Positions 21,588 to 62,778 of a DNA stretch of 64,000 nucleotides are shown here, piece by piece. The notes under the pieces were generated by a model. The model did not search any database. It was given only the letters and a program-made list of their open reading frames with translations, and was not told the origin of the DNA. The translations under genes were made by a program, and so were the position numbers. The DNA is from a virus: positions 412,237 to 476,236 of IMG/VR virus record IMGVR_UViG_3300032236_002285. One strand, given 5' to 3'. The stretch's first letter is position 1; every line of letters begins with the position of its first letter.

Positions 21588-21950
21588 GTTCTTTCTTCTG
21601 CGATACTTTTGTTTTGACTTTTCCACTTCATCTTCGTTGTTTCCGTACATATAGTTATAATAATAAAGAAGTGTTGCGTCTTGTAAGTTTTCTTTAATAC
21701 AATCATCACAAATAGCAATCACGAATTGATCACCATCATGTGTTGAACCATAACCAGCGTCAATGATATGAATTATACCATTATCAATCATTTCATTATT
21801 GACATTAACCAAACTACCATCTTCTCTTCTTTCTCTTTTCCAAATAACATCCTCTTCACTTTGAGGGGGTGAATCTTCAGTTGAGATTTTAGAACCCATT
21901 CTTGGTGTATAAGGAATTACATTATTTTTCTTACAACAGATGCAATACAT
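21570..21950 (-). CDS. Zinc-binding small protein
   Basis: 126 residues. N-terminal CICC and later CDDC (residues ~3-6 and ~78-81) can form one zinc site; middle is acidic; C-terminus is basic (KSKQKYRRRKNLDNIV). Last gene of the long leftward array starting at RNase P protein. Its ATG overlaps the stop of the upstream 49-residue gene by one base (TAATG). The KYRRRKNLDNIV end is a weak match to the array's C-terminal peptide. Confidence 0.75.
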   Translation of the reverse strand: MYCICCKKNNVIPYTPRMGSKISTEDSPPQSEEDVIWKRERREDGSLVNVNNEMIDNGIIHIIDAGYGSTHDGDQFVIAICDDCIKENLQDATLLYYYNYMYGNNEDEVEKSKQKYRRRKNLDNIV

Positions 21951-22099
21951 TAGTTAAATATCTTTTTAATTTTTTTCATTCTTTTCTTTTCTCTACTTAA
22001 TGGTCTGTTATAAGTTATAATAGAAGATATTCTTGTTTCTAAATTAGGTAGAAACCTTATTTTAGCACCTGGCTTTAACTCAAAGAATTCTTTTTTCAT
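21950..22099 (-). CDS. Tagged small protein, 49 residues (end RMKKIKKIFN)
   Basis: ATG at 22099, TAA at 21950-21952. Begins MKKEFFELKPGAKIRFLPNL and ends RMKKIKKIFN, matching the ends of its two upstream neighbours (RMKKIKNIFDI, RKEKIKNLFNL). Stop and next start overlap as TAATG. Short N-terminal beta-type segment (AKIRFLPNLETRISSI). Function unknown. Confidence 0.7.
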   Translation of the reverse strand: MKKEFFELKPGAKIRFLPNLETRISSIITYNRPLSREKKRMKKIKKIFN

Positions 22100-22281
22100 A
22101 TATCAAATATGTTTTTAATTTTTTTCATTCTTCTGCTTTGCTTAGAAGGAAACTTCATTGTCATAAAAGATGGATAAATAATTCTATCGTAGTTTTTAAT
22201 ACTATCTTGAATTTTACCCTTCTGTTCTTTTCTAAGTGATGCTAGTTCTTCTAACATCTTCTTCATTTGTTCTTCGTTCAT
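22096..22281 (-). CDS. Tagged small protein, 61 residues (end RMKKIKNIFDI)
   Basis: Acidic/basic helix at the N-terminus (EEQMKKMLEELASLRKEQKG), a short YPSFMTMKFPSK segment and the tag SRRMKKIKNIFDI. ATGA overlaps at both ends link it to the genes on either side. Confidence 0.75.
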   Translation of the reverse strand: MNEEQMKKMLEELASLRKEQKGKIQDSIKNYDRIIYPSFMTMKFPSKQSRRMKKIKNIFDI

Positions 22282-22421
22282 AGATTAAACAAGTTCTTTA
22301 TTTTCTCTTTTCTTTTTGTTCGTCTTGATGGTAGAATAGTTACTGAATGTGTTAAAGAGGATATACCACCTTGTAATCCACTTGGTAAAGTAAAAACAAA
22401 ATCAAAATTCTTTATATTCAT
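22278..22421 (-). CDS. Tagged small protein, 47 residues (end RKEKIKNLFNL)
   Basis: ATG at 22421 overlaps the nucleotidyltransferase stop (ATGA); TGA at 22278-22280 overlaps the next ATG. Core FDFVFTLPSGLQGGISSLTH is beta-prone, followed by a basic SRRTKRKEKIKNLFNL tail. The same IKN-[IL]-F ending as the next two genes suggests a local triplication of the tag variant. Confidence 0.7.
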   Translation of the reverse strand: MNIKNFDFVFTLPSGLQGGISSLTHSVTILPSRRTKRKEKIKNLFNL

Positions 22422-23260
22422 TTCTCTGCTACTTTTCTAAAGTCAGTTAAGATAGTGTTTCTTAGTTCTCTGAACTCTTCATCTAATTCCTCCCAAGTCC
22501 ATCTTTTTCTTTTAATCTTATCCCAAATAAAGTTAGCACAAGAAAAATCTGTAATACGACCTGACGTTGCTATTTGAGTAGCAAACATAGGAATTCTCAA
22601 TGAGTGAAAAAGAGATTTAACTCCGGTGTGGTATTCGTCAGTTAGTTCTAATTTCTTTTTGCACTTGACCCAGCTATTAGAACTTATATGAGAAGTTGCG
22701 TGTCTGAGTTTAGCTAAGTTGATTTTGAAATTATCAAACTTGATAGTTTCTTTTAACTTAGCCCAATCTGGTGCCCAAATACATTCTAGATTGTTTATAC
22801 GATGCCATTCTAAATCAGCTTTGAACTTATCAGGAGTGTAAACGTGAATGTTGAATAAACCATTACGAATCTCAGTTGATTCAACAGAGTTGTTAGCGAT
22901 CATAATAATATCCCAATCAGAATCAGAGGTAGCTGTTCCGTATACCTGAGACCCGAAGATGTACACGTTAAAGACCCGACTTGGGTGTATCTTTGATGCT
23001 TTAATTATTGTTTCTAATGTTGGTATCATTATCTTATCTATTTTAATATTTCTTACTGCTGATGGATCTAAACTCTCTAAAATCCCCTCAATACAATCTT
23101 GACAAAGAATTGAAACTCCACCATCTAATGTGTGTATAGAAGCACACTTCACAACGTGAGAGTCACAACCATCACATATCTTATTATCATCAACAAACAT
23201 TAGAGATGCTTTAAGTACTTGTGGTCTTTCTGGAAACTTAGATAAGTGTATTTTTCTCAT
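22418..23260 (-). CDS. Pol-beta-type nucleotidyltransferase with zinc finger
   Basis: 280 residues. N-terminal zinc site C29-x2-C32 with C53-x2-C56. Residues 100-118 read YIFGSQVYGTATSDSDWDI: the GS motif and catalytic DxD of minimal nucleotidyltransferases (MNT/KNTase class). Such enzymes transfer NMP to RNA, proteins or small molecules. The C-terminal helical region (HTGVKSLFHSLRIPMFATQ) resembles the substrate domain of these enzymes. No HEPN partner is adjacent. No array tag; ends DFRKVAEK. Confidence 0.8.
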   Translation of the reverse strand: MRKIHLSKFPERPQVLKASLMFVDDNKICDGCDSHVVKCASIHTLDGGVSILCQDCIEGILESLDPSAVRNIKIDKIMIPTLETIIKASKIHPSRVFNVYIFGSQVYGTATSDSDWDIIMIANNSVESTEIRNGLFNIHVYTPDKFKADLEWHRINNLECIWAPDWAKLKETIKFDNFKINLAKLRHATSHISSNSWVKCKKKLELTDEYHTGVKSLFHSLRIPMFATQIATSGRITDFSCANFIWDKIKRKRWTWEELDEEFRELRNTILTDFRKVAEK

Positions 23261-23478
23261 ATTCCTAATTCTTTTAACTTGTCGTCTCTTAATTTACTAA
23301 GCAATTCATACTTACTACGAATGAATCTTGTTTCACCAATACAATTACCATTATCATCTTCTAAATCAAGACCTCTAATGTCATCATCACCTGTAATAGT
23401 GAACTGATGTCCTTTCTTATATACTTTACCGTTAAATTCAAAGTCCTCTAAAAAAACTACTCTGTCTCCAATTCTCAT
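23257..23478 (-). CDS. Tagged SH3-like small protein (end LRDDKLKELGI)
   Basis: 73 residues. MRIGDRVVFLEDFEFNGKVY and KKGHQFTITGDD are typical of small SH3/KOW-like beta barrels, then YELLSKLRDDKLKELGI. ATGA overlaps on both sides. Confidence 0.75.
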   Translation of the reverse strand: MRIGDRVVFLEDFEFNGKVYKKGHQFTITGDDDIRGLDLEDDNGNCIGETRFIRSKYELLSKLRDDKLKELGI

Positions 23479-23717
23479 TTTAATATTTTATTTATTTGTT
23501 GTTCTCTAAATTCTTCTAACGTCATAAAATGTTTAGCATCCATCTTCCTAAACTTACCATCATCACACTTGATAACATATGATGGTGCTACAGGTTTTAA
23601 TGTAACTGGATCATAAATAACAGGAGTCAATTCACACTCATAAAAGCTACCTGGCTTTACATAGTAAGCCATTTCATCAACTGGTGATATAGTATCTTTA
23701 AGATAGAGTGTAGCCAT
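23475..23717 (-). CDS. Tagged SH3-like small protein (end REQQINKILK)
   Basis: 80 residues. Beta-rich KPGSFYECELTPVIYDP...YVIKCDDGKFRKM resembles the barrel of the neighbouring gene; LEEFREQQINKILK is the ILK variant of the tag. A TATCTTTG box at 23722-23729 lies 4 nt upstream of its ATG, so a new transcript may begin here. Confidence 0.75.
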   Translation of the reverse strand: MATLYLKDTISPVDEMAYYVKPGSFYECELTPVIYDPVTLKPVAPSYVIKCDDGKFRKMDAKHFMTLEEFREQQINKILK

Positions 23718-23721
23718 TTTA

Positions 23722-23740: not shown

Positions 23741-23974
23741 TTAGATTCCTAATTCACTTAACTTTTTATCTCTATCCTCTTTAACTGAACAAGATTCACA
23801 TTTTGTAGGCTCTCCTCTGAATCCACCTTTATATAGGTCTAATTCTTTTTTACAAGATTCACAAAGCTCACCAATACCAATTGAAAATAATTCATCAGAA
23901 TCATATTTACCATATGACTTAGGTTCTTTCAAATCAAGATGTAAAATTGTTTTGATAAGATCTACAAATTTCAT
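23741..23974 (-). CDS. Tagged zinc-ribbon protein (end DRDKKLSELGI)
   Basis: 77 residues. CESCKKE and CESCSVK (roughly 38-66) form a zinc ribbon; the tag follows at once (KEDRDKKLSELGI). The last codons are TTA GGA ATC then TAA with no following overlap, so LGI here is not dictated by an ATGA junction. Confidence 0.75.
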   Translation of the reverse strand: MKFVDLIKTILHLDLKEPKSYGKYDSDELFSIGIGELCESCKKELDLYKGGFRGEPTKCESCSVKEDRDKKLSELGI

Positions 23975-24198
23975 ATACCTAATTCATTTAGTTTATCTTC
24001 TCTTAAATCTACTATATCAATACAATCTTCTGGTATTATAGCCCAACTAGTCAAACCATGTGACTTAATAACACGGTAATATTCATCTTTGTCATTAAGA
24101 CCAACCTCAAATACTTCACCCACTTTATCATGATACCAATATCTGTCTGTACTAGATTCTGAGTAATCACAAGAGCATTTTATAATTTTTACTTTCAT
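23971..24198 (-). CDS. Tagged SH3-like small protein (end LREDKLNELGI)
   Basis: 75 residues. MKVKIIKCSCD, KVGEVFEVGLND and YYRVIKSHGLTSWAIIPEDC form the beta-barrel pattern shared with genes at 61127 and 61623. Overlaps both neighbours by ATGA. Confidence 0.75.
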   Translation of the reverse strand: MKVKIIKCSCDYSESSTDRYWYHDKVGEVFEVGLNDKDEYYRVIKSHGLTSWAIIPEDCIDIVDLREDKLNELGI

Positions 24199-24482
24199 AT
24201 TCCTAAATCATTTAGCTTAATATCTCTATCTAATTCAGTTGAGATATTTTTTAACTTCTTTGATAGAAACCACATTAAGCCAGAATCACCAAACTGATAT
24301 GGTTCTTCGGGCCAAGAGTCTCTATCTTTTGAGTTCATCTGTCTTGCTTCTTCGCACCATTCTTCTGGTATCAATTTATAGATTTCTTCATCCAAGTCAT
24401 TACAACCGTGATTATCAAATTCATCTTTAGCCATCATCAACATCTTTGATGATAACTCTAATAGCAATTTTATATCTTTCAT
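24195..24482 (-). CDS. Tagged NHGCND-type small protein (end DRDIKLNDLGI)
   Basis: 95 residues. FDNHGCNDLDEEIYKLIPEEW resembles a group of small phage hypothetical proteins with an NHGCND motif. Aromatic/helical middle (GDSGLMWFLSKKLKNIS), then the tag. Function unknown. Confidence 0.72.
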   Translation of the reverse strand: MKDIKLLLELSSKMLMMAKDEFDNHGCNDLDEEIYKLIPEEWCEEARQMNSKDRDSWPEEPYQFGDSGLMWFLSKKLKNISTELDRDIKLNDLGI

Positions 24483-24706
24483 ATCCCTATGTGTTTAAGT
24501 TTCTTTTGTCTTAACAAGTTTAAGTATTCTGACTTTAATAAACAAAGAGTATGTCCATCCATTTGTCTATTTGGTACATCAAATGAAACTAAAATATCAT
24601 TCTCTCTTTGAGAGATAGTATGAATTTTAATATCCATTGGATTTTCTAAACCAATGTTCCATTTGTATAAACAAATGTCATATAACAACTCTTCATCTAA
24701 TATCAT
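24479..24706 (-). CDS. Tagged small protein (end LRQKKLKHIGI)
   Basis: 75 residues. Beta-rich ENDILVSFDVPNRQMDGHTL then SEYLNLLRQKKLKHIGI. This end is homologous in pattern to residues ~75-97 of the nucleotidyltransferase at 33952 (DIYLQFMREEKLRHIAV), suggesting that gene contains a fused copy. Confidence 0.72.
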   Translation of the reverse strand: MILDEELLYDICLYKWNIGLENPMDIKIHTISQRENDILVSFDVPNRQMDGHTLCLLKSEYLNLLRQKKLKHIGI

Positions 24707-25065
24707 ATACCCAAACCATTTAACTTTTGATCTCTCTTATATAACAAAGAAACTTCAATGTTATTATCTTCTGGATAACTTAAAACATTTTGTAAGTAGT
24801 CATAAACTTCTTGAGTTCTACCTTCGTCTGATTCATATCCATAAAGATATCCACCTCTGAATATTCTACCATCAGATGGATCATCAATCTCACCTTGAGC
24901 AGTTAGTATCAATGATTCTATTTCACCTTCATCAATACCAAAAGATTTTAATTGATTAAGTAAATCAATCAAATCTTCCAATCTTTCTTTATAGTCCCAA
25001 CCCCAGTTGCCTCTAAGGTCTAATTGTAAGTGACCAATTGCGGTTTTCAATTCTTCTATATTCAT
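24703..25065 (-). CDS. Tagged acidic protein (end KRDQKLNGLGI)
   Basis: 120 residues. Helical acidic body (KTAIGHLQLDLRGNWGWDYK, DGRIFRGGYLYGYESDEGRT) with no recognised motif. Tag LLYKRDQKLNGLGI; ATGA junctions. Confidence 0.7.
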   Translation of the reverse strand: MNIEELKTAIGHLQLDLRGNWGWDYKERLEDLIDLLNQLKSFGIDEGEIESLILTAQGEIDDPSDGRIFRGGYLYGYESDEGRTQEVYDYLQNVLSYPEDNNIEVSLLYKRDQKLNGLGI

Positions 25066-25277
25066 ATTCCTATTTTTTCTAAATTATCTATTCTTGTTTT
25101 TACTTTAACTGATATCCAATGTTCATCACCACAAAATTGAGATTCCGGATCAGTTATACTGGCTTCTGAGCCGTGTAAGTGACAAGCAAACTCAACACAC
25201 CAATTAGCTGATGTGTATAGTTCAGGTCTGCTTTTATCAATAAAAAACAAACAATTTTTACAACACTTTTCTCTCAT
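25062..25277 (-). CDS. Tagged Cys-rich protein (end TRIDNLEKIGI)
   Basis: 71 residues. CCKNC, then WCVEFACH and FCGDEHW: at least seven Cys/His able to bind zinc. Ending VKTRIDNLEKIGI is a divergent tag lacking the usual R-D-x-K. Confidence 0.72.
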   Translation of the reverse strand: MREKCCKNCLFFIDKSRPELYTSANWCVEFACHLHGSEASITDPESQFCGDEHWISVKVKTRIDNLEKIGI

Positions 25278-25528: not shown

Positions 25529-26352
25529 ATAGCAACTAAATCTTCGTATTTAAATTTTGTTTGTTTTTTCTTTTTATTAATGAACTTAACCTCATTTACC
25601 ACTAAATCACCTTTTTCTATCTCAGATTTAATTTTATCAAATGTTTCTTTTTTTGGTTCAAATAATTTAAGTGAGTCCCAAATGCTACCAGAATGTATTG
25701 AAGCATTATAAACTTCTATCAAACCATCTTTATAGTCATATGAAAACCAAACACCTTCTACCCAAACAGATCTACCTCTTTGAATATTAAATGCGATATC
25801 AAGTGCAACTTCTCTCCAGTAAGATTTAGTGAGAGCTTCACAAGCTGGTTTTGACCAATCTAATATACCTCTAGCATCCTTGACATTCTCAGGAAAACTA
25901 ACTTCATATTTTACTCCTTCAATTCCATCCACACTAAATCTTCTCTCTTCTGAATAGTGACCCGCGTATTTGAGTTTATCTTTTTGGTGAACTACTGGTA
26001 TAGTCCATTCATCAATATTGCTAAATTCTGGATTTCTTTCTAAAAATGTTTTTAGCTTAATACTCACATTTGATGAGGTTTTGTAATGATCATACCCATT
26101 AACGCCTGTTATAAATTTAGGCGATGTATCTGATTTAGGATTAAAAAAGAAACCAACATTTATTGTAAGAACATCCCAGTTGTTAGCATTGAAACTTAAT
26201 CCGTAGATATCACGACTACACAAAGGCCTGCTGTCAATAGAAGGTGGACAAATACCAATTAAATCCTTAGTATATCCTGGTGAGTTTAGAATTTCTTGTC
26301 TAATGACTTCTAATACCGGATGGTCTTTTTTTATTGTATAAATTTTTTTCAT
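25525..26352 (-). CDS. Unknown 275-residue array protein
   Basis: Not recognised. Mixed alpha/beta with several Cys/Trp (DLIGICPPSIDSRPLCSRDI; VGFFFNPKSD; SVWVEGVWFSYDYKDGLIEV). Could be an enzyme, but no catalytic motif stands out. Ends FKYEDLVAI, at best a degenerate tag. ATGA junctions place it in the array as one of two large untagged members. Confidence 0.75.
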   Translation of the reverse strand: MKKIYTIKKDHPVLEVIRQEILNSPGYTKDLIGICPPSIDSRPLCSRDIYGLSFNANNWDVLTINVGFFFNPKSDTSPKFITGVNGYDHYKTSSNVSIKLKTFLERNPEFSNIDEWTIPVVHQKDKLKYAGHYSEERRFSVDGIEGVKYEVSFPENVKDARGILDWSKPACEALTKSYWREVALDIAFNIQRGRSVWVEGVWFSYDYKDGLIEVYNASIHSGSIWDSLKLFEPKKETFDKIKSEIEKGDLVVNEVKFINKKKKQTKFKYEDLVAI

Positions 26353-26864
26353 ATTCCTAATTTATTTAATACTTTACTTCTAATGTTTGCTTTAGTGTCC
26401 CAATATTTCTTTGTGTCTAAGTAATACAACTCAATATCACCTTTTGATTGGTCTAAAAATCTAATCTTCCAATCTGCTGATGTTTCTTTAACATCAATAA
26501 TAACAAGTTCAGTACCTTTTGAAATCTTCCACCAGTTTGGCTTCTGACTCGGATCGCTGTGATTGATATATTTCTTAAATATACCATCATAATAGAAATC
26601 TTTTTTAACTACAACTATCTCACCAACTTGAGGAACTTGATAGCCACTTCTATCAAAGTCAACCATTCCATCATAAATAAGAATTCGATAGAGACCTAAG
26701 ACACAAAGTATCAATATCATTGACACACCGAAGAATAGATTGCCAGTTTGTATGTTAATCATACTAAAGGCAACAATCGAAACCATGAAAAGAAACTTAA
26801 ATACTTCATTTCTGTCTAACCAACGATTCAATCTAAAAATACTATTCTTTAACATGCTAACCAT
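26349..26864 (-). CDS. Tagged membrane protein (end IRSKVLNKLGI)
   Basis: 171 residues (an ATG 9 nt downstream is an alternative start). Two hydrophobic segments (~residues 22-41 and ~45-66), then a soluble domain with a small-barrel look (GEIVVVKKDFYYDG...GTELVIIDVKETSADWKI). Ends KANIRSKVLNKLGI, so the tag would face the cytoplasm beside the soluble domain. Confidence 0.75.
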   Translation of the reverse strand: MVSMLKNSIFRLNRWLDRNEVFKFLFMVSIVAFSMINIQTGNLFFGVSMILILCVLGLYRILIYDGMVDFDRSGYQVPQVGEIVVVKKDFYYDGIFKKYINHSDPSQKPNWWKISKGTELVIIDVKETSADWKIRFLDQSKGDIELYYLDTKKYWDTKANIRSKVLNKLGI

Positions 26865-27190: not shown

Positions 27191-28143
27191 GACCCAAATA
27201 AACTATTTAATAAATCATCACGATGTGACTGAACATCTTCAAAACAAGAATACTGAAACCAATTTGAACGATTGTCGTCACCATAAATTAAAACATTTAC
27301 ATAACCATTAGAAATGCTTGTACTACGAACTTCATAATATTGGTCTTTAGTAAGACTTTTCTGACCATAATTATAAACATCATTCAAACACTTTAATCTT
27401 GTTCCTTCAGGAACTTTCATCAACTTAGATATCTTTTCAGAAATTGAACTAATGATATAATCAGAGTTTAATTTTCTAAAATCAATTTTACTATCATCAA
27501 CAATCTGAGCCAAACTACTCAATAACTTACGAGTTACATCAATCTCACGCTTAGGTACACCAGAGAAGTCTAACTCTTTATCTATATACCAACGAACTGA
27601 TGATTCAATTATTGATTGATTTTTGAAATAAGAATAATGTTCTTTACGATCATCATAACTATCATAGACATCAATGTTATTTTCCATGATATAGTTAATC
27701 ATTGGGACAATACAATACTTGAAACCCTCAATATGTTCGTGACTTCTGCGACCAGAAGTTCTACGACCTCTACTAGTTACACTGGGTTTGGAAACCCAAC
27801 GACCATTTAGATAACGATCAAAAGTAGCACCATCATTTAGTATCTCATTGAACTGACGTTGAGTTCTATTAAGTAAAAACTTCTTAAATCTTTCATTGTT
27901 AGTTTGTTCAACTAACATTGGTTTTAATCTACGCCAAGTCATACCTTTCATAACAGGATTAAATCCTGCGTTGAAACAATTAGTTAAAAAAGAACCAAAA
28001 CTAGCAAAGTCACCAAGACCTAACTTGTTCATTGTACCATAACTAACTTGACCCTGCTCATATTCAGATATGATAGGGAATATCTCTTTTGCTTCTTTGT
28101 AAGTTTCTAAGTTCTTTTTAATTAGATCGTAGTTTAACTTCAT
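27187..28143 (-). CDS. Unknown 318-residue protein downstream of RNase P protein
   Basis: Directly coupled (ATGA) to rnpA, so they may act together. Basic, with an Arg/Ser patch (SVTSRGRRTSGRRSHEHIEG) suggestive of nucleic-acid contact, and a long helical second half. Ends HRDDLLNSLFGS, a tag variant. No family recognised; an RNA-related role is inferred only from its partner and composition. Confidence 0.75.
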   Translation of the reverse strand: MKLNYDLIKKNLETYKEAKEIFPIISEYEQGQVSYGTMNKLGLGDFASFGSFLTNCFNAGFNPVMKGMTWRRLKPMLVEQTNNERFKKFLLNRTQRQFNEILNDGATFDRYLNGRWVSKPSVTSRGRRTSGRRSHEHIEGFKYCIVPMINYIMENNIDVYDSYDDRKEHYSYFKNQSIIESSVRWYIDKELDFSGVPKREIDVTRKLLSSLAQIVDDSKIDFRKLNSDYIISSISEKISKLMKVPEGTRLKCLNDVYNYGQKSLTKDQYYEVRSTSISNGYVNVLIYGDDNRSNWFQYSCFEDVQSHRDDLLNSLFGS

Positions 28144-28439
28144 AGTTTAGATATGATTTTAGAAACACTTTTGTTGATCTCATCAAAAGTAGGAACACCT
28201 TCACCGATGTAAACAAAAGCTATATTCTTGTTATTGATTGTTGATTTTCTAACAGATTCTTTCATTAATCTTTTGATTCTATTTCTATCAACAGCTCTTT
28301 TGAACTTCTTAGATGAAACAGCAAAAAGAAAAGAAGTAGATTCAGATTCTAAAACTTTAGCCAATACGATACCATTTGAAACGGACTTACCCCTTTCAAA
28401 AAGTGCATCAATTGATATCTTATTTTTTAGAATATTCAT
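28140..28439 (-). CDS. rnpA: Ribonuclease P protein component
   Basis: 99 residues, slightly short for the family (about 110-130). LFERGKSVSNG (13-23), then FAVSSKKFKRAVDRNRIKRL (39-58) continuing MKESVR: the RNR signature of bacterial RnpA that binds the RNase P RNA and the 5' leader of pre-tRNA. Known role: cofactor of the RNase P ribozyme that matures tRNA 5' ends. First gene behind a consensus Bacteroidota promoter (28444-28474). No RNase P RNA was seen, so it would work with host M1 RNA, possibly changing its specificity. Confidence 0.9.
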   Translation of the reverse strand: MNILKNKISIDALFERGKSVSNGIVLAKVLESESTSFLFAVSSKKFKRAVDRNRIKRLMKESVRKSTINNKNIAFVYIGEGVPTFDEINKSVSKIISKL

Positions 28440-29669: not shown

Positions 29670-30146
29670 TTATTTATTTAACAATTCATTTATTTTATCG
29701 TCTCTAACAATAGACTTATCAACGGATTTTTTTACATCCATTACATATTTGTTTACTTTTTCTTCATCAAGATCTCTTTTCTTTTGAGTATCTAAAAAAT
29801 AAAGAGTATCGAATATGAATTTTTGTTTTGAGTAAGAATTATCTTTTCTTGAGTCAAAAATTAACTCTTCAATATCATTACCATAGCTTTTATTTTCAGT
29901 AATAATAACGGTTGTTATATATCTATTGCGGAATAATCTTTTTATCCTATATACGTTAATAGCGTATCTATAATTCATACCATCTTCTGATATTTTAAAT
30001 GAGTAGTAATCTGATTTTTTATTAATATCATCAATATCTCTATTTCTAAAAGAAATACGAGAAGTGTTTAACATCTTTATCCAATCTTTTCTACTTTTTA
30101 TAGAATTTAAGATAGTATCTAATAACGGGTTATATTTATTCATCAT
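29670..30146 (-). CDS. Tagged protein (end VRDDKINELLNK)
   Basis: 158 residues, strongly basic, with an alpha/beta core (YRYAINVYRIKRLFRNRYIT) not recognised. Ends DKSIVRDDKINELLNK. Confidence 0.72.
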   Translation of the reverse strand: MMNKYNPLLDTILNSIKSRKDWIKMLNTSRISFRNRDIDDINKKSDYYSFKISEDGMNYRYAINVYRIKRLFRNRYITTVIITENKSYGNDIEELIFDSRKDNSYSKQKFIFDTLYFLDTQKKRDLDEEKVNKYVMDVKKSVDKSIVRDDKINELLNK

Positions 30147-53067: not shown

Positions 53068-53073
53068 AAAACA

Positions 53074-53105
53074 CAAAGATACGAATAATATTTTAAAAAA
53101 ACAAA
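53074..53105 (-). promoter_or_regulatory. Bacteroidota sigma promoter
   Basis: TTTG (53102-53105)-N20-TATCTTTG (53074-53081) on the minus strand, 6 nt before ATG 53067. Confidence 0.75.
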
Positions 53106-53763: not shown

Positions 53764-54024
53764 ATGATAGAACACTTTAAACTAACAGATATAAATATAC
53801 AATCAAACGAAGGTAAATTACTAATGGCAGCAGTAGCCATTCTTACCTCTATCGATCATAAACATATCATCTCAGGTAGATGGGGTGGCACAATAACACC
53901 AGATACAGCAGTTAAACAAATAACAGAACTATCTAACAAAATCTACTACGAAGAAGAATACAAAGCAGAACAACAAAGAATCGAAAGAGATAATAAAATT
54001 AATAAGATACTAAGAAATGAGTAA
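53764..54024 (+). CDS. Tagged protein on plus strand (end ERDNKINKILRNE)
   Basis: 86 residues; first gene of a five-gene rightward island. DRWGGTITPDT-like core (SGRWGGTITPDTAVKQITEL). Ends QRIERDNKINKILRNE. Overlaps the next gene by 8 bp. Confidence 0.73.
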   Translation: MIEHFKLTDINIQSNEGKLLMAAVAILTSIDHKHIISGRWGGTITPDTAVKQITELSNKIYYEEEYKAEQQRIERDNKINKILRNE

Positions 54025-54406
54025 TTTAACTAACAGGTCAGCGTGGCACGGTGCTGGTATTGCACAAATAACAGGGTCTCAAGGCTCTATAGGAATAACA
54101 GGCGCTAAAGGTACACCAGGTAACCAATTCCAAATAGAAGAACTTGAAGAACTACAAAAAAAGTATCATAACCGCTTTATCATTAGAATAGAATACGATG
54201 ATGTAGACTTATCTCCTACTAACCTAATAAAAGATACTCACGAAGTGAGAGTGTCTAAAGACACTACTACTACCAATAGAGAATATAAGCTCATACCTAA
54301 AAGTATTTCTAATATAGTAAACGAAACAGATAAATTCATACAAACTCTAATAGTAATGATTAGAGATGAAAAATTAGACAAAATCATCAATGGCAGAAAA
54401 AGTTAA
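54017..54406 (+). CDS. Tagged protein with collagen-like repeat (end IRDEKLDKIINGRKS)
   Basis: 129 residues. GSQGSIGITGAKGTPG gives five Gly-X-Y triplets, then a beta/alpha domain and VMIRDEKLDKIINGRKS. Collagen-like stretches in phages usually trimerise fibre-type proteins. 17-bp overlap with the next gene. Confidence 0.73.
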   Translation: MSNLTNRSAWHGAGIAQITGSQGSIGITGAKGTPGNQFQIEELEELQKKYHNRFIIRIEYDDVDLSPTNLIKDTHEVRVSKDTTTTNREYKLIPKSISNIVNETDKFIQTLIVMIRDEKLDKIINGRKS

Positions 54407-55263: not shown

Positions 55264-55293
55264 TTATATACCTAATGACTCTAATTTATCATA
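55264..55293 (-). pseudogene. Tag remnant YDKLESLGI
   Basis: Shifted frame just past the stop of the next gene encodes YDKLESLGI then TAA: a second, orphan tag end without any gene body. Confidence 0.5.
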
Positions 55294-55534
55294 TACCTAA
55301 TGATTTTAGTTTTTTATCACGACTTTCGTCTAAGTTTAATTCTGTATCGCGCCAGTGAGCGTATAAACTCTTAGTTTGTAATTGCTTTTTAGAACATCTT
55401 TTACATATTCGGAATAAGGTATGCTGCTGCCAACGGTAGGTTGAGCTGTTTTGCTTTTTTACCACAAGAGAGCCAAAAGAATCGCGATCTGTAAAGTATC
55501 GCCAGTTGTGGCCTATTATTTTACAAAGTATCAT
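55289..55534 (-). CDS. Tagged zinc protein (end SRDKKLKSLGI), paralog of 60058
   Basis: 81 residues. MILCKIIGHNWRYFTDRDSF, FRICKRCSKKQLQ, HWRDTELNLDESRDKKLKSL then GI. The order GH-x-W, CxxC, WR-x-x-x-LN, tag is the same as in 60058-60315. Confidence 0.77.
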   Translation of the reverse strand: MILCKIIGHNWRYFTDRDSFGSLVVKKQNSSTYRWQQHTLFRICKRCSKKQLQTKSLYAHWRDTELNLDESRDKKLKSLGI

Positions 55535-55660: not shown

Positions 55661-55882
55661 CTACTTTAGAATAGAATCTATCTTTGTTTCTCGCCATTTG
55701 TCTAATGGGGTTAGTATCCTTTCAATTGTGTTTAAGTGTAGTGTTGTTACCCGTTTATTTTCGGTGGTGAATATATCACGGTATGCACCGCCTAGTGATA
55801 GTGGTGTTTTTATTATATAGATGTTACCTTTTTGGAAGGTGATATCGTGTAGAGTAAAGGTTTTTATACAGATGTATTTCAT
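55661..55882 (-). CDS. Tagged SH3-like protein (end WRETKIDSILK)
   Basis: 73 residues. MKYICIKTFTLHDITFQKGN, IYIIKTPLSLGGAYRDIFTT then LDKWRETKIDSILK; the barrel pattern with LDEWRRRQLDKIL of 61623 suggests a paralog. Confidence 0.76.
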   Translation of the reverse strand: MKYICIKTFTLHDITFQKGNIYIIKTPLSLGGAYRDIFTTENKRVTTLHLNTIERILTPLDKWRETKIDSILK

Positions 55883-56748: not shown

Positions 56749-57306
56749 TTAAATGTTATTATATCCCTCAACGGATTCTACTGGTGGTTTTCCAATCTCT
56801 TGTAGGAAATCGTTTAATCTATCGATGATTATCTCATCATCATGTATAATATCATAATCATTAAACAATTCTATATAATCTTTATTATAGAATAATAGCC
56901 AAATGTCACTAACTGGGTTATTATAAAGGTAAATATCACCAACAACCACCTTTGGAAAATGTTCTAACGATGTTAATTTATTATTTTTACAACTAAAATA
57001 ACCACCAACGGATTCAGGACAATCTTCCAAAGATGTTAATTGATTATAAGAACAATTAAAATTACCACCAACGTATTTAGGAGCACCTTCCAAAGATATT
57101 AGTTTATTATCAATACAATTAAAATCACCAGTAACCTTTCTAAACTTTAATGGTAGCTTTGCTAATCCTTTATTTTCTAAATCAACATTACCATCAACAT
57201 CAATCGAACCATCTTCGTTAATAGTATAATCTTCTATACCACAAATTTTACATATATCATCAATGTCATTTTCAATAAATGATTCATATAGTTTTAAGTA
57301 TTTCAT
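56749..57306 (-). CDS. Repeat protein, MKYLKLYESF start
   Basis: 185 residues from ATG 57306; an upstream ATG (57333) would skip the motif start. After MKYLKLYESF a helical lead, then ~20-residue repeats (for example LISLEGAPKYVGGNFNCSYN, LTSLEDCPESVGGYFSCKNN) forming an LRR-like ladder. Paralog of 57311 by tandem duplication. Confidence 0.78.
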   Translation of the reverse strand: MKYLKLYESFIENDIDDICKICGIEDYTINEDGSIDVDGNVDLENKGLAKLPLKFRKVTGDFNCIDNKLISLEGAPKYVGGNFNCSYNQLTSLEDCPESVGGYFSCKNNKLTSLEHFPKVVVGDIYLYNNPVSDIWLLFYNKDYIELFNDYDIIHDDEIIIDRLNDFLQEIGKPPVESVEGYNNI

Positions 57307-57310
57307 TATC

Positions 57311-57922
57311 TTATATATTATTATATCCTTCAACGGATTTCACTGGTGGCTTACCAATCTCTTGTAAGAACTCATTTAATCTATCAATGATAATGCTATT
57401 ACCACGAATAACATCGTAATCGTTGAGTAATTCAATCTTATCTTTATCCTTGAATAATTGCCAAATATTATCAACCGGATTATCATAAAGGTAAATATCA
57501 CCACCAACCTGTGGGAAATGTTCTAAAGATCTTAATTGATTATTACAACAATTAAAATAACCACTAACTGATCTAGGAGAACCAACCAAACTAGTTAATT
57601 GATTATGACTACAATCAAAACGATCACCTACCGATTCAGGACAACCTTGCAAACTAGTTAATCTATTGAAAGAGCAATAAAAACTACCACCAACATATTG
57701 AGGAGAACCCTCTAATGATGTTAATTGATTATTAGAACAATAAAAAGTACCAGTAACCTTACCGAACTTTAGTGGTAGCTTTTTTAATCCTTTATTATTT
57801 AAATTAACATTACCATCGACATCAATAGATCCATCCGAGTTTATAGTATAGTTTTTTATACCATACTTTTTACAGATAGCATCAATTTCATTAAATGATT
57901 CATATAGTTTTAAGTATTTCAC
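57311..57922 (-). CDS. Repeat protein, MKYLKLYESF start (GTG)
   Basis: 203 residues from GTG 57922. Four or five repeats of C-S-x-N-x-LTSL-x-G-x-P-x-x-VGG-x-F (for example LTSLEGSPQYVGGSFYCSFN, LTSLVGSPRSVSGYFNCCNN). The ends of both copies match (KPPVKSVEGYNNI). Known as phage LRR-like proteins; the opening motif suggests packaging in the head. Confidence 0.8.
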   Translation of the reverse strand: MKYLKLYESFNEIDAICKKYGIKNYTINSDGSIDVDGNVNLNNKGLKKLPLKFGKVTGTFYCSNNQLTSLEGSPQYVGGSFYCSFNRLTSLQGCPESVGDRFDCSHNQLTSLVGSPRSVSGYFNCCNNQLRSLEHFPQVGGDIYLYDNPVDNIWQLFKDKDKIELLNDYDVIRGNSIIIDRLNEFLQEIGKPPVKSVEGYNNI

Positions 57923-58349: not shown

Positions 58350-58613
58350 TTATATTAGTTCTGATAATTTAATACCTCTTAAAATTGATTTCCATTTACT
58401 TACTTCTGAGTTATCTATAATGCTATCTGCTTTATAGATAATAACTTTATCATCAACTATTTCATAGATAACTTTTTTAGTATGATTTAAATGTGACATT
58501 GGTTTACCAATTAACATAATCATATTATCACCTATAAGTTTAACATCTTGTATCTCAGTGGTGTGATTAGGATAGTGTAGTTTAATAAGGTCTATAATTT
58601 CTTGTTTATCCAT
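58350..58613 (-). CDS. Tagged small protein (end LRGIKLSELI)
   Basis: 87 residues. IQDVKLIGDNMIMLIGKPMS then VIYEIVDDKVIIYKADSIID; SILRGIKLSELI ends it. TATCTTTG box at 58618-58625. Confidence 0.73.
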   Translation of the reverse strand: MDKQEIIDLIKLHYPNHTTEIQDVKLIGDNMIMLIGKPMSHLNHTKKVIYEIVDDKVIIYKADSIIDNSEVSKWKSILRGIKLSELI

Positions 58614-58661: not shown

Positions 58662-59045
58662 TTATTTCAAATCCTTTACTGATAACTTACCTTTAAATAA
58701 ACAACCTTGTGATTCAAAATCTTTTCTTTCAAGTCCTAAACTTGTTAAATAATTAGAAACTTCTTCTAATTTAGAAAGGTCAAATTCAAAAATACTAGAC
58801 ATATATTGTCCATTTTTATCTTTATTAAAACCTAAATTGAACTTATCATTCAACATATCCATTATTTTAACATTTACCTTGCTATCAAGATCCTTGTTTA
58901 ATATTCTTGGCATTCCATTATTTGTGAATACCCAAATAAAAACAGATTCTGCATATGTACCCATAACATTTCTTTTCCAAGATGTTTTAGCACCTGAGAC
59001 AATATCATTGAATAAACCTTCGTTAAATCTTTTTAAGTGTTTCAT
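58662..59045 (-). CDS. Unknown protein with MKHLKRFNEGLF motif
   Basis: 127 residues. Starts MKHLKRFNEGLFNDI, a late-type opening, preceded by a TATATA stretch. Middle has KMDMLNDKFNLGF-type helices; end SVKDLK. A packaging-motif gene embedded in the tag arrays. Confidence 0.73.
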   Translation of the reverse strand: MKHLKRFNEGLFNDIVSGAKTSWKRNVMGTYAESVFIWVFTNNGMPRILNKDLDSKVNVKIMDMLNDKFNLGFNKDKNGQYMSSIFEFDLSKLEEVSNYLTSLGLERKDFESQGCLFKGKLSVKDLK

Positions 59046-59099: not shown

Positions 59100-59819
59100 T
59101 TAGCTTAATATTTGATTTAACTTCTCATCACGATATTGTGATATGTCTGGTTGCCAATCATATAGATAAGAATGTATTCTAAATCTTTTATCTACATATT
59201 TAGTCCATTGTGGTCCATTATAACTAAAAGGACCACCCAACTCTGTTTGTTGAAAAGCAGTTACTGGTAGATAATAACCAACCTCAGTAAATAACTTTTC
59301 TAACATATCTACGAATTGATTCAAAGCTAATTGTTCTTCTACATAATCATTATAATTGTCTTCTAAGTGCCATTGAAGCATATTATCTCTATCAATGGCG
59401 GCTTGAACACCCTGATTAACCATTTCTTTCCTAACATCACCAAGAATATTAGAGTTACCAAATGGTCGTTTGAATTCCATAGTGATGTAAGTGTCATCTT
59501 CATCCCAATCTAAGTAAAGTTGTTTTAATAAACCAATCTGCCAATCCTCTACATTATACTTTTGTATAAAGTCAGGTTTTAATTGACACGATATGGTGAT
59601 AAACTGCATCGCAGGATAAATGTCATTTAATTCTTTTTTGGTTAAATACTCATTATCTTCTAAACGCCATTGAAGCATATTATCATAGTAACCACTCTCA
59701 TCTGAGTGGTGTGCTTTCAATGACTTAATCCTTTGTATCATATCATCGGTAATATGATATGCTCGTGGTATATTTTTTGATACCCACTTACCTGAATAAA
59801 AGAATTCTGATGTGTACAT
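59100..59819 (-). CDS. Tagged protein with internal repeat (end YRDEKLNQILS)
   Basis: 239 residues. YDNMLQWRLEDN recurs as DNMLQWHLEDN about 100 residues later. End ISQYRDEKLNQILS. Function unknown. Confidence 0.75.
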   Translation of the reverse strand: MYTSEFFYSGKWVSKNIPRAYHITDDMIQRIKSLKAHHSDESGYYDNMLQWRLEDNEYLTKKELNDIYPAMQFITISCQLKPDFIQKYNVEDWQIGLLKQLYLDWDEDDTYITMEFKRPFGNSNILGDVRKEMVNQGVQAAIDRDNMLQWHLEDNYNDYVEEQLALNQFVDMLEKLFTEVGYYLPVTAFQQTELGGPFSYNGPQWTKYVDKRFRIHSYLYDWQPDISQYRDEKLNQILS

Positions 59820-60061
59820 TATTTAATTTCTAATACGTTAAATACGTTATCAATCTTAGCTTCTCTGATATCTGCTAACTCTACATAATAGATAATAGCA
59901 GAGTATGATTCAATTGATCGATGAGGTCCAGAAGAAACACCTATTGAGTATTCTGTTTTGATAATCTGTCTGATATCAATTTTTTGTAGAAAGTCATTAA
60001 CCGCAACTTCTAATGTATGAGTATGGTCCTCATTAAATATCTTTACTTTAGCATTTATCAT
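59819..60061 (-). CDS. Tagged small protein (end IREAKIDNVFNV)
   Basis: 80 residues. VKIFNEDHTHTLEVAVNDFL start; end IREAKIDNVFNVLEIK. Shares one base with its neighbour's start. Confidence 0.73.
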   Translation of the reverse strand: MINAKVKIFNEDHTHTLEVAVNDFLQKIDIRQIIKTEYSIGVSSGPHRSIESYSAIIYYVELADIREAKIDNVFNVLEIK

Positions 60062-60315
60062 ATACCTAGTTCTTTTAATTTCTTATCTCTTTCTTGTTCT
60101 ACATTCAGCGCAACATTACGCCAATCCGTTTTTTCATCACCAGAATGTGCCACTCTAACTTGATTAATAAAACACCTTGGACAATATCTAAATTCAGTAT
60201 TTACTGGAAAGGTATATGATGGTATTACTCTATGTGTTAAATTAACAGGTGATGTTATATGGGGAACATCTTCTTTATAGTAGTTCCACTTATGACCAAA
60301 CAACTTACACTTCAT
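60058..60315 (-). CDS. Tagged zinc protein (end ERDKKLKELGI)
   Basis: 85 residues. MKCKLFGHKWNYYKEDVPHI, FRYCPRCFINQ, WRNVALNVEQERDKKLKELG: paralog of 55289. Confidence 0.78.
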   Translation of the reverse strand: MKCKLFGHKWNYYKEDVPHITSPVNLTHRVIPSYTFPVNTEFRYCPRCFINQVRVAHSGDEKTDWRNVALNVEQERDKKLKELGI

Positions 60316-60810: not shown

Positions 60811-60835
60811 ATAGATATAAAATATAAAAGTTTAT

Positions 60836-61132
60836 ATGATTATATATAAAGGTGTTTCTTATAACTCTACTAAATTAATTTGCACTAGTAAGCTATCTTT
60901 AATGTTAAGCTACCCTAATTATAACAAATTAGAAATAGGTAAGATATATGATGGTTTCTTAGTTTATGTTTATGGTAATGGTACATCTGGTTGTGTTGAT
61001 AAACCAAATGGAGATAATACTCAACCATGTGGTTGGTATATAGATGGAGTTAGTAGTTCTATAAATGAGAACTTTGGTCTTGAGTTTTTTAAGCCACTTA
61101 GAGATTACAACTTATCATTGATAAATTTATAA
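60836..61132 (+). CDS. Tagged-like protein on plus strand (end LRDYNLSLINL)
   Basis: 98 residues. Cys-containing beta domain (GCVDKPNGDNTQPCGWYIDG). PLRDYNLSLINL keeps R-D with changed following residues. Convergent with 61127, overlap 6 bp. Confidence 0.7.
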   Translation: MIIYKGVSYNSTKLICTSKLSLMLSYPNYNKLEIGKIYDGFLVYVYGNGTSGCVDKPNGDNTQPCGWYIDGVSSSINENFGLEFFKPLRDYNLSLINL

Positions 61133-61354
61133 TATTCCTAACTTCTTTAGTTTCTTATCACGAGTATATTCAATTGATTCAAATCTTTTATGATGATAAA
61201 AACGTTTATTGCCATAATCATTAATAATAGCAAATGAATGGTCGCTAATAGAAACATTATCACCTAACACTTCATAAGCTTTACCAATAGTTAAATTGAC
61301 ATGTTCATCTTGAGCACCATCAACTTCACCATTATTAATACAAACTACTTTCAT
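61127..61354 (-). CDS. Tagged SH3-like protein (end TRDKKLKKLGIL)
   Basis: 75 residues. HVNLTIGKAYEVLGDNVSIS, FAIINDYGNKRFYHHKRF: the most typical member of this small-barrel group in phages. Tag with one extra Leu. Confidence 0.77.
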   Translation of the reverse strand: MKVVCINNGEVDGAQDEHVNLTIGKAYEVLGDNVSISDHSFAIINDYGNKRFYHHKRFESIEYTRDKKLKKLGIL

Positions 61355-61626
61355 ATTCCTAACTGATCTAATTTTTGATTTCTATATTCTTCTAAGGTAA
61401 TAAAATTATTAGGGTCAACATCCATAGTTGTTTCTAATTTATCATGATGGATAATAAGATACGACTTACCATGACCCCTTCCTGTGCATTTATCATAAAC
61501 TTCAAAGATATCACCTTTATAATAAGCTCTTTCAATATAAACACCTTTATAATAATAACCTTTCTTAGGTATCGCCCGAAATGCCTTTAGGGGCAGCGGC
61601 GCGTCATTAATAGCAATCACTTTCAT
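61351..61626 (-). CDS. Tagged SH3-like protein (end YRNQKLDQLGI)
   Basis: 91 residues. AYYKGDIFEVYDKCTGRGHG, HHDKLETTMDVDPNNFITLE then EYRNQKLDQLGI. ATGA overlaps. Confidence 0.76.
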   Translation of the reverse strand: MKVIAINDAPLPLKAFRAIPKKGYYYKGVYIERAYYKGDIFEVYDKCTGRGHGKSYLIIHHDKLETTMDVDPNNFITLEEYRNQKLDQLGI

Positions 61627-61841
61627 AGAATCTTATCTAATTGTCTCCTTCGCCATTCATCTAATTTAAGGAATGTGCTTTTATAGTAATACTCTTTGTG
61701 ACCTCTATCATTTATTATCCACCAGTTGTAATTATCAATACCCGGTAGGCCGCATCCTGGCAGGACATCATATATCTTACCATAGGTTAATTCATATTGT
61801 AAACCTTGTGACCTGTATTTCTTAATACAAACTACTTTCAC
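61623..61841 (-). CDS. Tagged SH3-like protein (end WRRRQLDKIL)
   Basis: 72 residues. YELTYGKIYDVLPGCGLPGI, WWIINDRGHKEYYYKSTFLK then LDEWRRRQLDKIL; paralog of 55661. Confidence 0.76.
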   Translation of the reverse strand: MKVVCIKKYRSQGLQYELTYGKIYDVLPGCGLPGIDNYNWWIINDRGHKEYYYKSTFLKLDEWRRRQLDKIL

Positions 61842-62059
61842 TTCAATATCTTTTTAATCTTCTCTTCTCTGTGGCAAGCTTCACAAATTAACTTACTATC
61901 ACCAATAGTTAAATCACCTGTTGGTCTCAATATAACATGAATTATAATATTTACAATGGTAACAAATCTACTAGGTTTCTTAACAAAGTATTTATCTTTT
62001 ACTAAATCAAATTTAGATTGACAATCGGGACAAGTTCTTTCAGTTATTCTCTTACTCAT
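61838..62059 (-). CDS. Tagged zinc protein (end REEKIKKILK)
   Basis: 73 residues. CPDCQSK and CEACHREEK zinc site; the tag REEKIKKILK begins straight after the last Cys. A hydrophobic ITIVNIIIHVILRP-like stretch lies between the zinc halves. Confidence 0.77.
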   Translation of the reverse strand: MSKRITERTCPDCQSKFDLVKDKYFVKKPSRFVTIVNIIIHVILRPTGDLTIGDSKLICEACHREEKIKKILK

Positions 62060-62184
62060 ATGCCTAACTCATTTAACTTTTCTTCTCTAAGAATAGATGT
62101 TATATCATTAATACATCTAATTGGTTTTAATTCACCATCAACTAAAGATATGTAATAACTATTATCTTTAACAGGATAATTCAT
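62056..62184 (-). CDS. Tagged micro-gene, 42 residues (end LREEKLNELGI)
   Basis: ATG 62184, TGA 62056-62058 overlapping the next ATG. MNYPVKDNSYYISLVDGELK, PIRCINDITSILREEKLNEL and GI: a small beta core and full consensus tag. 17-bp overlap with 62168. Confidence 0.72.
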   Translation of the reverse strand: MNYPVKDNSYYISLVDGELKPIRCINDITSILREEKLNELGI

Positions 62185-62428
62185 TCTTTTTCCAGCTTCT
62201 TAGAGTATTATTACCAATCATTAAATTCAATTTATTCAATTGAATTTCATTGTCTAATCTAAATTTTATACCATAAACATTTTTCAAAAAGCTCATACCG
62301 AAATCATTTTCTAATAAAGTTTCAATAGGTGTACAATCAAATTCTTTTTTTACATTAGCAATAATGTTATTGTAAGAATTTATAAAATCTTCTTTAGATT
62401 GAAATTTAGATTTATAAATAAAATTCAT
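62168..62428 (-). CDS. Unknown helical protein
   Basis: 86 residues, FQSKEDFINSYNNIIANVKK and LNKLNLMIGNNTLRSWKKNE. No tag; ends ELSC. Confidence 0.68.
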   Translation of the reverse strand: MNFIYKSKFQSKEDFINSYNNIIANVKKEFDCTPIETLLENDFGMSFLKNVYGIKFRLDNEIQLNKLNLMIGNNTLRSWKKNELSC

Positions 62429-62474
62429 TTTAAATATATCATAATTAATGTGTAAAGTTGTAAATATTTATACC

Positions 62475-62501
62475 TACAAAATTCCGCATCGTTTTTCTGT
62501 A
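62475..62501. repeat. 27-bp imperfect palindrome, copy E
   Basis: TACAAAAT...TTTCTGTA, centre TCCGCATCGTT; 4 bp after the stop of 62506 on the minus strand. Confidence 0.8.
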
Positions 62502-62505
62502 GTTT

Positions 62506-62778
62506 TTAAATGCCTAACGCTTCGAGTTTATCTTGTCTAATAGATTGTGTATCTAATATCATAGTGCCACTATAATGACCTGTTACCATATTACGAAGTT
62601 GTTCATATGAATAGTTAATAATACGACCATTTTCCCATTCAATAGCAACTTCATACTCAAACGGAGCATTAACAACTTTCCCATGTGTATTTAATTTAGA
62701 GAGTGTATTTTCTTTATCAACCATTTCCTCTATCCAAATAACTTTATCACCTATATTTAGTTTCATAGAATCAATCAT
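62506..62778 (-). CDS. Tagged SH3-like protein (end IRQDKLEALGI)
   Basis: 90 residues. LNIGDKVIWIEEMVDKENTL, YEVAIEWENGRIINYSYEQL then SIRQDKLEALGI. LGI is coded TTA GGC ATT TAA with nothing overlapping after it, so it is kept as peptide. Confidence 0.76.
   Translation of the reverse strand: MIDSMKLNIGDKVIWIEEMVDKENTLSKLNTHGKVVNAPFEYEVAIEWENGRIINYSYEQLRNMVTGHYSGTMILDTQSIRQDKLEALGI

Follow-up and report, generated by a model that had tools for sequence, protein, structure and literature searches.

A shared C-terminal peptide on unrelated small proteins of T4-like huge phages, a candidate docking motif for a common partner

We describe here a ten-residue peptide, R-[DE]-x-K-[LI]-[NK]-x-[LI]-[GL]-[IK], which recurs at the C-termini of mostly small and otherwise unrelated genes of a huge phage represented by the IMG/VR record IMGVR_UViG_3300032236_002285 (476,236 bases; G000 below). 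The window, by which we mean the whole stretch of 64,000 nucleotides that was analysed, comprises positions 412237-476236 of this record at 30% GC. Its first 21.9 kb are a conserved core block holding at most two weak matches to the peptide, hereafter the tag. Between 21950 and 62778, by comparison, a position-specific profile finds the tag on 50 of 86 genes at 7 bits and on 42 of 86 at 10 bits.

Since this profile was built from tags and partly trained on the same genes, we note that two other approaches agree with it and make the enrichment independent of that training. The strict core R[DEN].K[LI]..[LI] lies in the last 20 residues of 27 of the 86 genes, as against 0.57 expected from internal positions and at most two occurrences in shuffled tails, and a wider regular expression matches 47 tails (1.3 expected). 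A motif-blind scan of all three-residue gapped patterns ranked R...[LI]..[LI] at or near the top (p<1e-47) in G000 and in four relatives, namely LR745206 (W01), LR756502 (W02), G009 and G011. About 325 kb of the 476 kb of G000 were read, in stretches, and in the first 264 kb, as sampled, 97 of 345 tails reach at least 7 bits where internal windows predict 1.5.

An initial annotation, made from the letters of this stretch, had reported the peptide on more than 50 genes, and the observation is confirmed and is stronger than first stated. The number was correct to within a few, all ten tails quoted in it are present where it had placed them, and its three codings of the LGI ending are right (GGA ATC TAA at 23741, GGC ATT TAA at 62506, GGT ATA TGA at 43278). 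The collection of tails that it had proposed gave an enrichment far above what internal windows and shuffled tails predict. The variety of bearers that it had described also holds: a membrane protein is among them (30149-30601, with an N-terminal transmembrane segment), ACP-like and Zn-ribbon members have weak to moderate Pfam matches, and an SH3-like member is plausible, in that the model of 61127 resembles SH3 domains with a Foldseek probability of 0.99 but an E-value of 0.04. The tagged genes of the window are as follows; coordinates are those of the tag unless a gene is named alone, the gene span comes after, and bits are profile scores.

21950-22313 (-), three adjacent small basic proteins (47-61 residues) with the variant tag R[MK]xKIK[KN][IL]F at 21950-21982, 22096-22131 and 22278-22313, 10-16 bits
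22418-23260 (-), protein with Cys-rich and nucleotidyltransferase-like domains and an internal tag copy, RNIKIDKIM, at residues 70-78
23257-23289 (-), RDDKLKELGI, gene 23257-23478 (73 residues), 20 bits
23475-23507 (-), REQQINKILK, gene 23475-23717, SH3-like family; homologs in G009 and G011 tagged
23741-23773 (-), RDKKLSELGI, gene 23741-23974; stop TAA, no ATGA overlap
23971-24003 (-), REDKLNELGI, gene 23971-24198, 20 bits
24195-24227 (-), RDIKLNDLGI, gene 24195-24482, 18 bits
24479-24511 (-), RQKKLKHIGI, gene 24479-24706, 19 bits
24703-24735 (-), RDQKLNGLGI, gene 24703-25065, 17 bits
25062-25094 (-), divergent tag RIDNLEKIGI, gene 25062-25277, 6 bits, under threshold
26349-26381 (-), RSKVLNKLGI, gene 26349-26666, 7 bits
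28518-29276 (-), gene for ClpP, untagged, candidate reader part, PF00574 E 1.6e-54
29670-29705 (-), RDDKINELLNK, gene 29670-30146, 20 bits
30149-30181 (-), RDRKINQILN, N-terminally membrane-anchored protein 30149-30601; tagged homologs in W01, G009 and G011
31656-31682 (-), RKEKIKKL, gene 31656-31892, Cys-rich, Zn-ribbon-like, 19 bits
33345-33380 (-), RDITIKSIIND, gene 33345-33746, Cys-rich, 9 bits
42478-42522 (-), RDNKLNNILSNIDK, gene 42478-43281 (267 residues), 20 bits
43278-43310 (-), RGKKLNELGI, gene 43278-43892, 19 bits
43876-43920 (-), RDMKLKTILDDKNS, gene 43876-44244, 18 bits
44237-44275 (-), RDEKLNNVLGND, gene 44237-44572, 13 bits
44645-44674 (-), RQYKLDRLL, gene 44645-44986, 17 bits
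47922-47954 (-), RDKKIDNILK, gene 47922-48194, Cys-rich, 21 bits
49134-49163 (-), RDNKIKLLI, gene 49134-49355, RING/Zn-ribbon-like, 17 bits
49352-49384 (-), RDSKISKILK, gene 49352-49639, 16 bits
49626-49667 (-), RDKKINTILNGTY, gene 49626-49964, 20 bits
49961-49990 (-), RTIKLKALL, gene 49961-50500, 9 bits
50500-50532 (-), RNKKLEQIGI, gene 50500-50889, 21 bits; homolog L129 tagged too
50886-50918 (-), RDLKLNKLGI, gene 50886-51158, 18 bits
51155-51187 (-), RDKILSELGI, gene 51155-51544, 13 bits
51531-51572 (-), RDNVLNKILDGLY, gene 51531-52004; ortholog ends in four phages RDKKLLEIGI, RDNKLNELLK, RDKKLKELGIC and RDKKLNTLGL
51994-52035 (-), RKNKIRRIFDIEV, gene 51994-52116, 18 bits
52113-52145 (-), RNKKIEELGL, ACP-like protein, gene 52113-52403
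52400-52429 (-), RDKKLKQIL, gene 52400-52777, 24 bits
52774-52806 (-), RQEKLNKLGI, gene 52774-53076, 19 bits
53986-54024 (+), RDNKINKILRNE, gene 53764-54024, 21 bits
54362-54406 (+), RDEKLDKIINGRKS, gene 54017-54406, 21 bits
55289-55321 (-), RDKKLKSLGI, gene 55289-55534, DUF1660-like, 18 bits
55661-55693 (-), RETKIDSILK, gene 55661-55882, 12 bits
58350-58379 (-), RGIKLSELI, gene 58350-58613, 16 bits
59100-59132 (-), RDEKLNQILS, gene 59100-59819, 24 bits
59819-59866 (-), REAKIDNVFNVLEIK, gene 59819-60061, 8 bits
60058-60090 (-), RDKKLKELGI, gene 60058-60315, DUF1660-like, 22 bits
61100-61132 (+), RDYNLSLINL, gene 60836-61132, 13 bits
61127-61162 (-), RDKKLKKLGIL, SH3-like protein 61127-61354; the AlphaFold2 model has residues 61-71 as a helix
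61351-61383 (-), RNQKLDQLGI, gene 61351-61626, 19 bits
61623-61652 (-), RRRQLDKIL, gene 61623-61841, 6 bits; aligns with tagged homologs
61838-61870 (-), REEKIKKILK, gene 61838-62059, 19 bits
62056-62088 (-), REEKLNELGI, gene 62056-62184, 22 bits
62506-62538 (-), RQDKLEALGI, gene 62506-62778, 13 bits; stop TAA, no ATGA overlap

The window also encodes an RNase P protein component adjoining ClpP (28140-28439, PF00825, E 3e-13) and a tyrosinase (34978-36435, PF00264, E 1e-28).

Selection acts on the tag at the level of the peptide. Its Arg is coded AGA, CGT, CGA or AGG and its Leu TTA, CTA, CTT, CTC or TTG, with Ile and Gly similarly varied, and pairs of tags use the same codon scarcely more often than codon usage predicts (0.59 against 0.54 in G000, 0.46 against 0.37 in G009), part of the excess arising because ATGA junctions require ATA. 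Moreover, 236 of the 395 tagged genes have some other ending than ATGA. The nearly free choice of synonymous codons and the many tagged genes away from ATGA junctions thus argue for selection on the peptide, and the annotation was correct that junction DNA does not account for the tag.

The anatomy of the tag, counted from Arg as position 0 (for instance SLEEWRDKKLNELGI) over 325 strong tags, points to a helix. No proline occurs at positions 0 to 7 where 68 would be expected. The invariant R0 follows T, S or D at -5 (T 2.6-fold), S at -3, E at -2 (3.6-fold) and a hydrophobic residue at -1, and is succeeded by D, E or N at +1, K at +3, L or I at +4 and +7, G or L at +8 and I at +9. By the established rules of helix capping, we would assign these preferences to a self-capped helix, opened by the N-cap box S/T-x-x-E and finished by a Schellman motif that would allow +9 to contact +4. 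The AlphaFold2 model of 61127 places the tag in its C-terminal helix behind the barrel, with a pLDDT of about 85-90. The distance from Arg to the end ranges from 8 to 18 residues, 18 different residues come last, and the strict core also occurs at 13 internal sites (0.7 expected) besides 162 C-terminal ones. Both this variability and the internal copies suggest that a free carboxylate is not what is recognised; the fixed free C-terminal residues of ssrA-like signals are not seen here, and a classical C-degron read by its free end appears less likely.

The bodies that carry the tag are diverse. No homolog was detectable in the sampled set for 251 of 388 tagged bodies, and the remainder form 60 families, the largest being SH3-like with 18 members. 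Pfam matches among the tagged proteins (the clients) include ACP-like, DUF1660, DUF2158 and Zn-ribbon domains, mostly single and weak, and the tag is almost absent from core replication and structural proteins and from large ones. Both members are tagged in 96 homologous pairs, and in 41 others one member falls under the threshold, in many of these with a recognisable divergent tag. Across 76 homologous pairs Arg is 100% identical and L4 71%, as compared to a mean of 43% for the body and just 22-25% for positions 5-6, which differ between homologs nearly as much as between unrelated tags. An invariant Arg beside drifting positions is typical of a short linear motif, as is an identical peptide under selection on non-homologous proteins. 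One family, for instance, keeps the same RRD..L core and then ends in ILDGLY, EIGI, LLK, LGIC or LGL. A search of viral contigs for orthologs of the tagged proteins 51531 and 30149 found none. In several clients an N-terminal transmembrane segment stands at the opposite end from the tag, which by the positive-inside rule would place the tag in the cytoplasm.

The tagged fraction of sampled genes is 24% in G000, 24% in W01, 34% in W02, 18% in G009 and 29% in G011, figures to be read with the knowledge that sampling of relatives favoured tag-rich stretches. The five tag phages have 27-40% GC, and G009, at 37-43% and with other codon choices, encodes the same peptide. The terminase of G000 is 78-79% identical to those of W01 and W02, 41-43% to those of LR756504 (W03) and LR756501 (W04, 735 kb) and about 30% to those of Bacteroidota and Sphingomonas phages, and by this terminase we assign G000 to T4-like huge phages of a probable Bacteroidota type. 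The product of 63374-64000 starts like a signal peptide and ends in a domain resembling the Bacteroidota sorting domain of the type IX secretion system (T9SS; PF18962, weak, below the cut-off); it is perhaps exported through a host T9SS, and such a Por secretion-tail-like protein fits a Bacteroidota-type host. The strict form R[DE]xKL[NK]ELGI followed by a stop was found in 28 stretches in IMG/VR and in none of 84,980 cellular species genomes (257 Gb).

The sister phage W03 bears a variant, R-K-x-[KR]-I-E-[ED]-L-[LI] (RKxKIEELL), on about 60 of 278 tails, so that the charge at +1 is reversed and L at +4 becomes I throughout the genome. W03 had seemed tagless by counts of a fixed-length DNA pattern (21 against 14 in the control) until the motif-blind scan revealed this variant. 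No tag was seen in the stretches read of T4, PTm1 and Vibrio phage 2.275.O, the motif-blind scan giving none in T4 and PTm1, nor by pattern counts in PAU, MA9V-2 and phage G. Two other shared endings were rejected as tags: WKxxExYL or WKxxDxYL in phage G belongs to a tandem array of about 15 paralogous genes of 180-206 residues (L231, about 360-371 kb), and the nine small genes of Vibrio phage 2.275.O that end in [KR]PNQRRRGIG (L217-L218) share further sequence and are probably diverged paralogs. W04 carries a different peptide, LDPYGEE[DN]W, in 103 copies, with none in a reversed control and none in 12 other phages. Its carriers are unrelated proteins (loci L179-L207), which have it at the C-terminus, at the N-terminus or internally, and many copies lie also on about 25 IMG/VR contigs. 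Genome-wide labels are thus not unique to one lineage, though their use may differ.

The same genomes encode an N-terminal peptide like the capsid-targeting sequence (CTS) of T4, for instance MIKKYNQFLNES and MKYLKKFNES, with the pattern MKxIKxYxxFLxES; T4 ipII and ipIII start MKTYQEFIAEA. It occurs in relatives too, and in the window at

10075-10707, CTS-like N-terminus
10763-12136, CTS-like N-terminus
36557-38224, CTS-like N-terminus
56749-57922, CTS-like N-terminus
58662-59045, CTS-like N-terminus

The stretch 56749-57922 encodes a pair of neighbouring proteins, 65% identical, in which leucine-rich-like repeats (NQLTSLEGxPxxVGG) follow the CTS-like start. Such a start is found even on a glutamyl-tRNA synthetase (L007, 2861-4486), and the W04 peptide is in part carried by proteins that begin like the CTS, as well as by a Peptidase_S77-like prohead protease. 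Tagged and CTS-like genes tend to exclude each other (odds ratio 0.36, p 1e-5, with 19 genes in both sets); when these 19 were inspected, none combined a convincing CTS with a convincing tag, and they look like chance matches of one pattern or the other. Their promoters differ as well. The element TAATATATA, which in G000, W01, W02, G009 and G011 lies mostly 11-40 bases ahead of the start, precedes 40 of 75 CTS-led operons (53%) and 8 of 198 tag-containing ones (4%), a depletion with p 6e-13 against all others and 1e-4 against small untagged operons. Host-like TTG-N-TAnnTTTG sites lean the opposite way (18/198 tagged operons against 25/528, p 0.03). We regard TAATATATA as the probable late promoter of these phages; the CTS-like genes would then be late and the tagged genes not late.

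We propose that the tag is a lineage-specific modular docking motif by which accessory proteins, not of the late class, are recognised in trans by one common partner, and give this a probability of roughly 0.55. The annotation had likewise suggested docking or sorting, for which codon freedom, conservation across diverged phages, non-homologous bodies and the sister variant speak, but it had not separated this from the alternatives below. Usually occupying the last 10-14 residues, the tag would form an amphipathic helix that opens with an N-cap [ST]-x-x-E and the hydrophobic residue. The Arg comes next, with Asp/Glu and Lys behind it and Leu/Ile at both +4 and +7, and L-G-I or L-L-K makes a Schellman-type close. 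With its face h(-1)/R0/K3/L4/L7 the helix would enter a groove of the partner, presumably phage-made, and the acidic residue at +1 would make a lineage-specific contact. The tag would be cytoplasmic on soluble and membrane-anchored clients alike. Its most likely role would be to gather host-takeover proteins, unrelated and fast-evolving, at a single site or machine while infection proceeds, a new gene being plugged in by acquiring the tag.

Regulated proteolysis is the strongest specific rival, though we think it unlikely. The tag would here be a recognition element, direct or via an adaptor, for a phage ClpC that lacks its N-domain and acts with ClpP in the controlled turnover of accessory proteins. 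ClpP (PF00574) is encoded by the tag-bearing G000, W01, W02, W03, G009 and G011 and is lacking in W04, PAU, PTm1, MA9V-2 and T4, which are without this tag, and a ClpC-type AAA+ protein occurs in G000, W01, W02, W03, G009, G001 and G010. G000 therefore has both the unfoldase and the peptidase that a degron requires, and terminal placement suits an unfoldase. In a comparison of Clp domains in G000, W03 and W04, the ClpC-type protein of G000, encoded outside the window, combines a UVR middle domain with a VGF loop resembling the one that binds ClpP, and lacks Clp_N; that of W03 also has no Clp_N and shows a VGF sequence at the corresponding place, and tagless W04 has a ClpB/ClpC-type protein with Clp_N and no ClpP. 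It is co-occurrence that suggests this candidate reader, and all the larger tag records, which have both Clp parts, share ancestry. Phage G and Vibrio phage 2.275.O possess ClpP and a Clp-type ATPase but not this tag, and the fragmentary records G001 and G010 show AAA_2 without ClpP. The varying last residue and spacing, unlike those of ssrA-type degrons, and the internal copies also count against this reading. As no TAATATATA was found upstream of the ClpC and ClpP genes, there is no link to a late clearance programme, and we rejected late Clp control as support for the clearance of early proteins. Of the partners that the annotation had listed, ClpP is present in the window with a ClpC-type gene elsewhere in G000, as a match by co-occurrence with the exceptions named; the AAA ATPase at 44986, a short AAA protein with weak Pfam matches, is unsupported.

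Alternatively, the helices might bind each other and gather the clients into a condensate or mixed oligomers without a dedicated reader. An amphipathic helix with constant hydrophobic positions and a single sequence common to all members would suit this, and the genome-wide shift of W03 at +1 and +4 is expected of self-association as it is of a single co-evolving reader. A helix of about ten residues in which two hydrophobic positions are strongly conserved is, however, short for a stable coiled coil, and the invariant Arg and the lysine on the same face would rather suggest a specific acidic groove; we consider self-association improbable.

The partner might instead be a protein of the host. 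Bacteroidetes were predicted as hosts of huge phages above 634 kb (PMC7162821), and lineage variants of the tag could follow the host. The absence of the strict consensus from the cellular genomes gives no sign of an endogenous ligand, with which a host receptor is still compatible, and we give docking to a host protein a low probability.

A second capsid-targeting signal, a C-terminal counterpart of the T4 CTS that would pack accessory proteins into the prohead for injection, has the best precedent in T4 itself, where small phage proteins with nothing else in common share a short terminal peptide (PMC9026906); by their terminase, these phages are T4-like. Yet a CTS-like N-terminus is already present on other genes, and the disjoint gene sets and different promoter classes make a packaging role unlikely; furthermore, membrane-anchored clients are tagged and the tag has no LxE-like cleavage site. 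We disfavour it strongly.

A constraint on DNA or translation would make the peptide a side effect of ATGA coupling, of ribosome-binding sites or of the nascent chain acting on termination and re-initiation. This reading gains something from the greater frequency of ATGA endings in tagged genes (159/395 against 125/1258) but is very improbable and was rejected, given the codon freedom, orthologs that change spacing and last residues yet keep the tag, and the 80 of 200 uncoupled small genes in tag-rich stretches that are tagged (52/102 with a downstream gap above 100 bp and 28/98 at strand switches). That all tagged genes are one paralogous family with bodies diverged beyond recognition is barely conceivable, since despite the genuine families noted above the bodies span ACP-like, Cys-rich Zn-binding, SH3-like, membrane-anchored and wholly unfamiliar proteins, and where PHROG domains match, as in 23257, the match stops before the tag.

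Several observations weigh against a docking motif read by one partner. Co-occurrence and phylogenetic profile in the sampled genomes singled out no partner, the profile approach meeting too many clade-specific core genes and incomplete genomes to resolve one. The tag phages are one clade and its sister, so that other traits varying together with the tag do not do so independently. A degradation signal would fit the strong preference for the C-terminus (162 sites against 13 internal) as well. Finally, TAATATATA lies upstream of 25-27% of other untagged operons too, and its putative lateness follows from the CTS link, so that an early timing of the tagged genes is no more than a possibility.

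If the docking reading is right, these phages possess a genome-encoded modular system of protein addressing with roughly a hundred clients or more in each genome, and we know of no bacterial virus with one on this scale. How giant phages take in so many unrelated accessory genes would then be understood, and accessory, probably host-takeover, genes would be identifiable in metagenomes by sequence alone. The tag would be a handle for one-step purification of the hub with its clients, and the sister-phage variants should make the reader findable by co-variation. More tentatively, we speculate that Mahaphage-type huge phages of three related lineages label their accessory proteomes with lineage-specific peptides (RDxKLNELGI, RKxKIEELL and DPYGEExW), each possibly read by a phage-made hub or compartment, such that acquiring the label might recruit new genes and the proteins of competing phages might be kept out.

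The annotation knew of no described system of this kind, and the literature that we searched likewise gave no counterpart to genome-wide tagging, but parts of it resemble known systems. Cargo-loading peptides of encapsulins and encapsulation peptides of bacterial microcompartments are short, often C-terminal (amphipathic and helical in microcompartments) and direct unrelated cargo to one shell; they serve a handful of proteins per system as compared to the fifth to third of sampled genes tagged here, and no shell protein is linked to the tag, although no search for shell proteins was made. The T4 CTS of IPI-III and Alt is likewise a short terminal peptide that sorts unrelated small phage proteins through a common partner, the scaffold core. 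It is N-terminal, of about ten residues with a K-x-Y-x-x-F-[ILT]-x-E-like sequence, and is cut off by the prohead protease, whereas the tag is C-terminal, helical, unrelated in sequence, without a cleavage site and confined to a separate gene set and promoter class. Clp tags, ssrA or adaptor-read, route many unrelated proteins by a C-terminal peptide to one machine, and the tag phages do encode ClpP and a ClpC-type protein; with ssrA, however, tmRNA makes the addition post-translationally and recognition is of the free end, whereas the present tag is genetically encoded on about a hundred genes or more, with a variable end and some internal copies. Sliding-clamp motifs (the PIP box and the bacterial clamp-binding motif) differ in sequence, and the clients here are not recognisable DNA-transaction proteins, but they offer the likeness of a degenerate short linear motif, often terminal, by which many unrelated proteins meet one reader.

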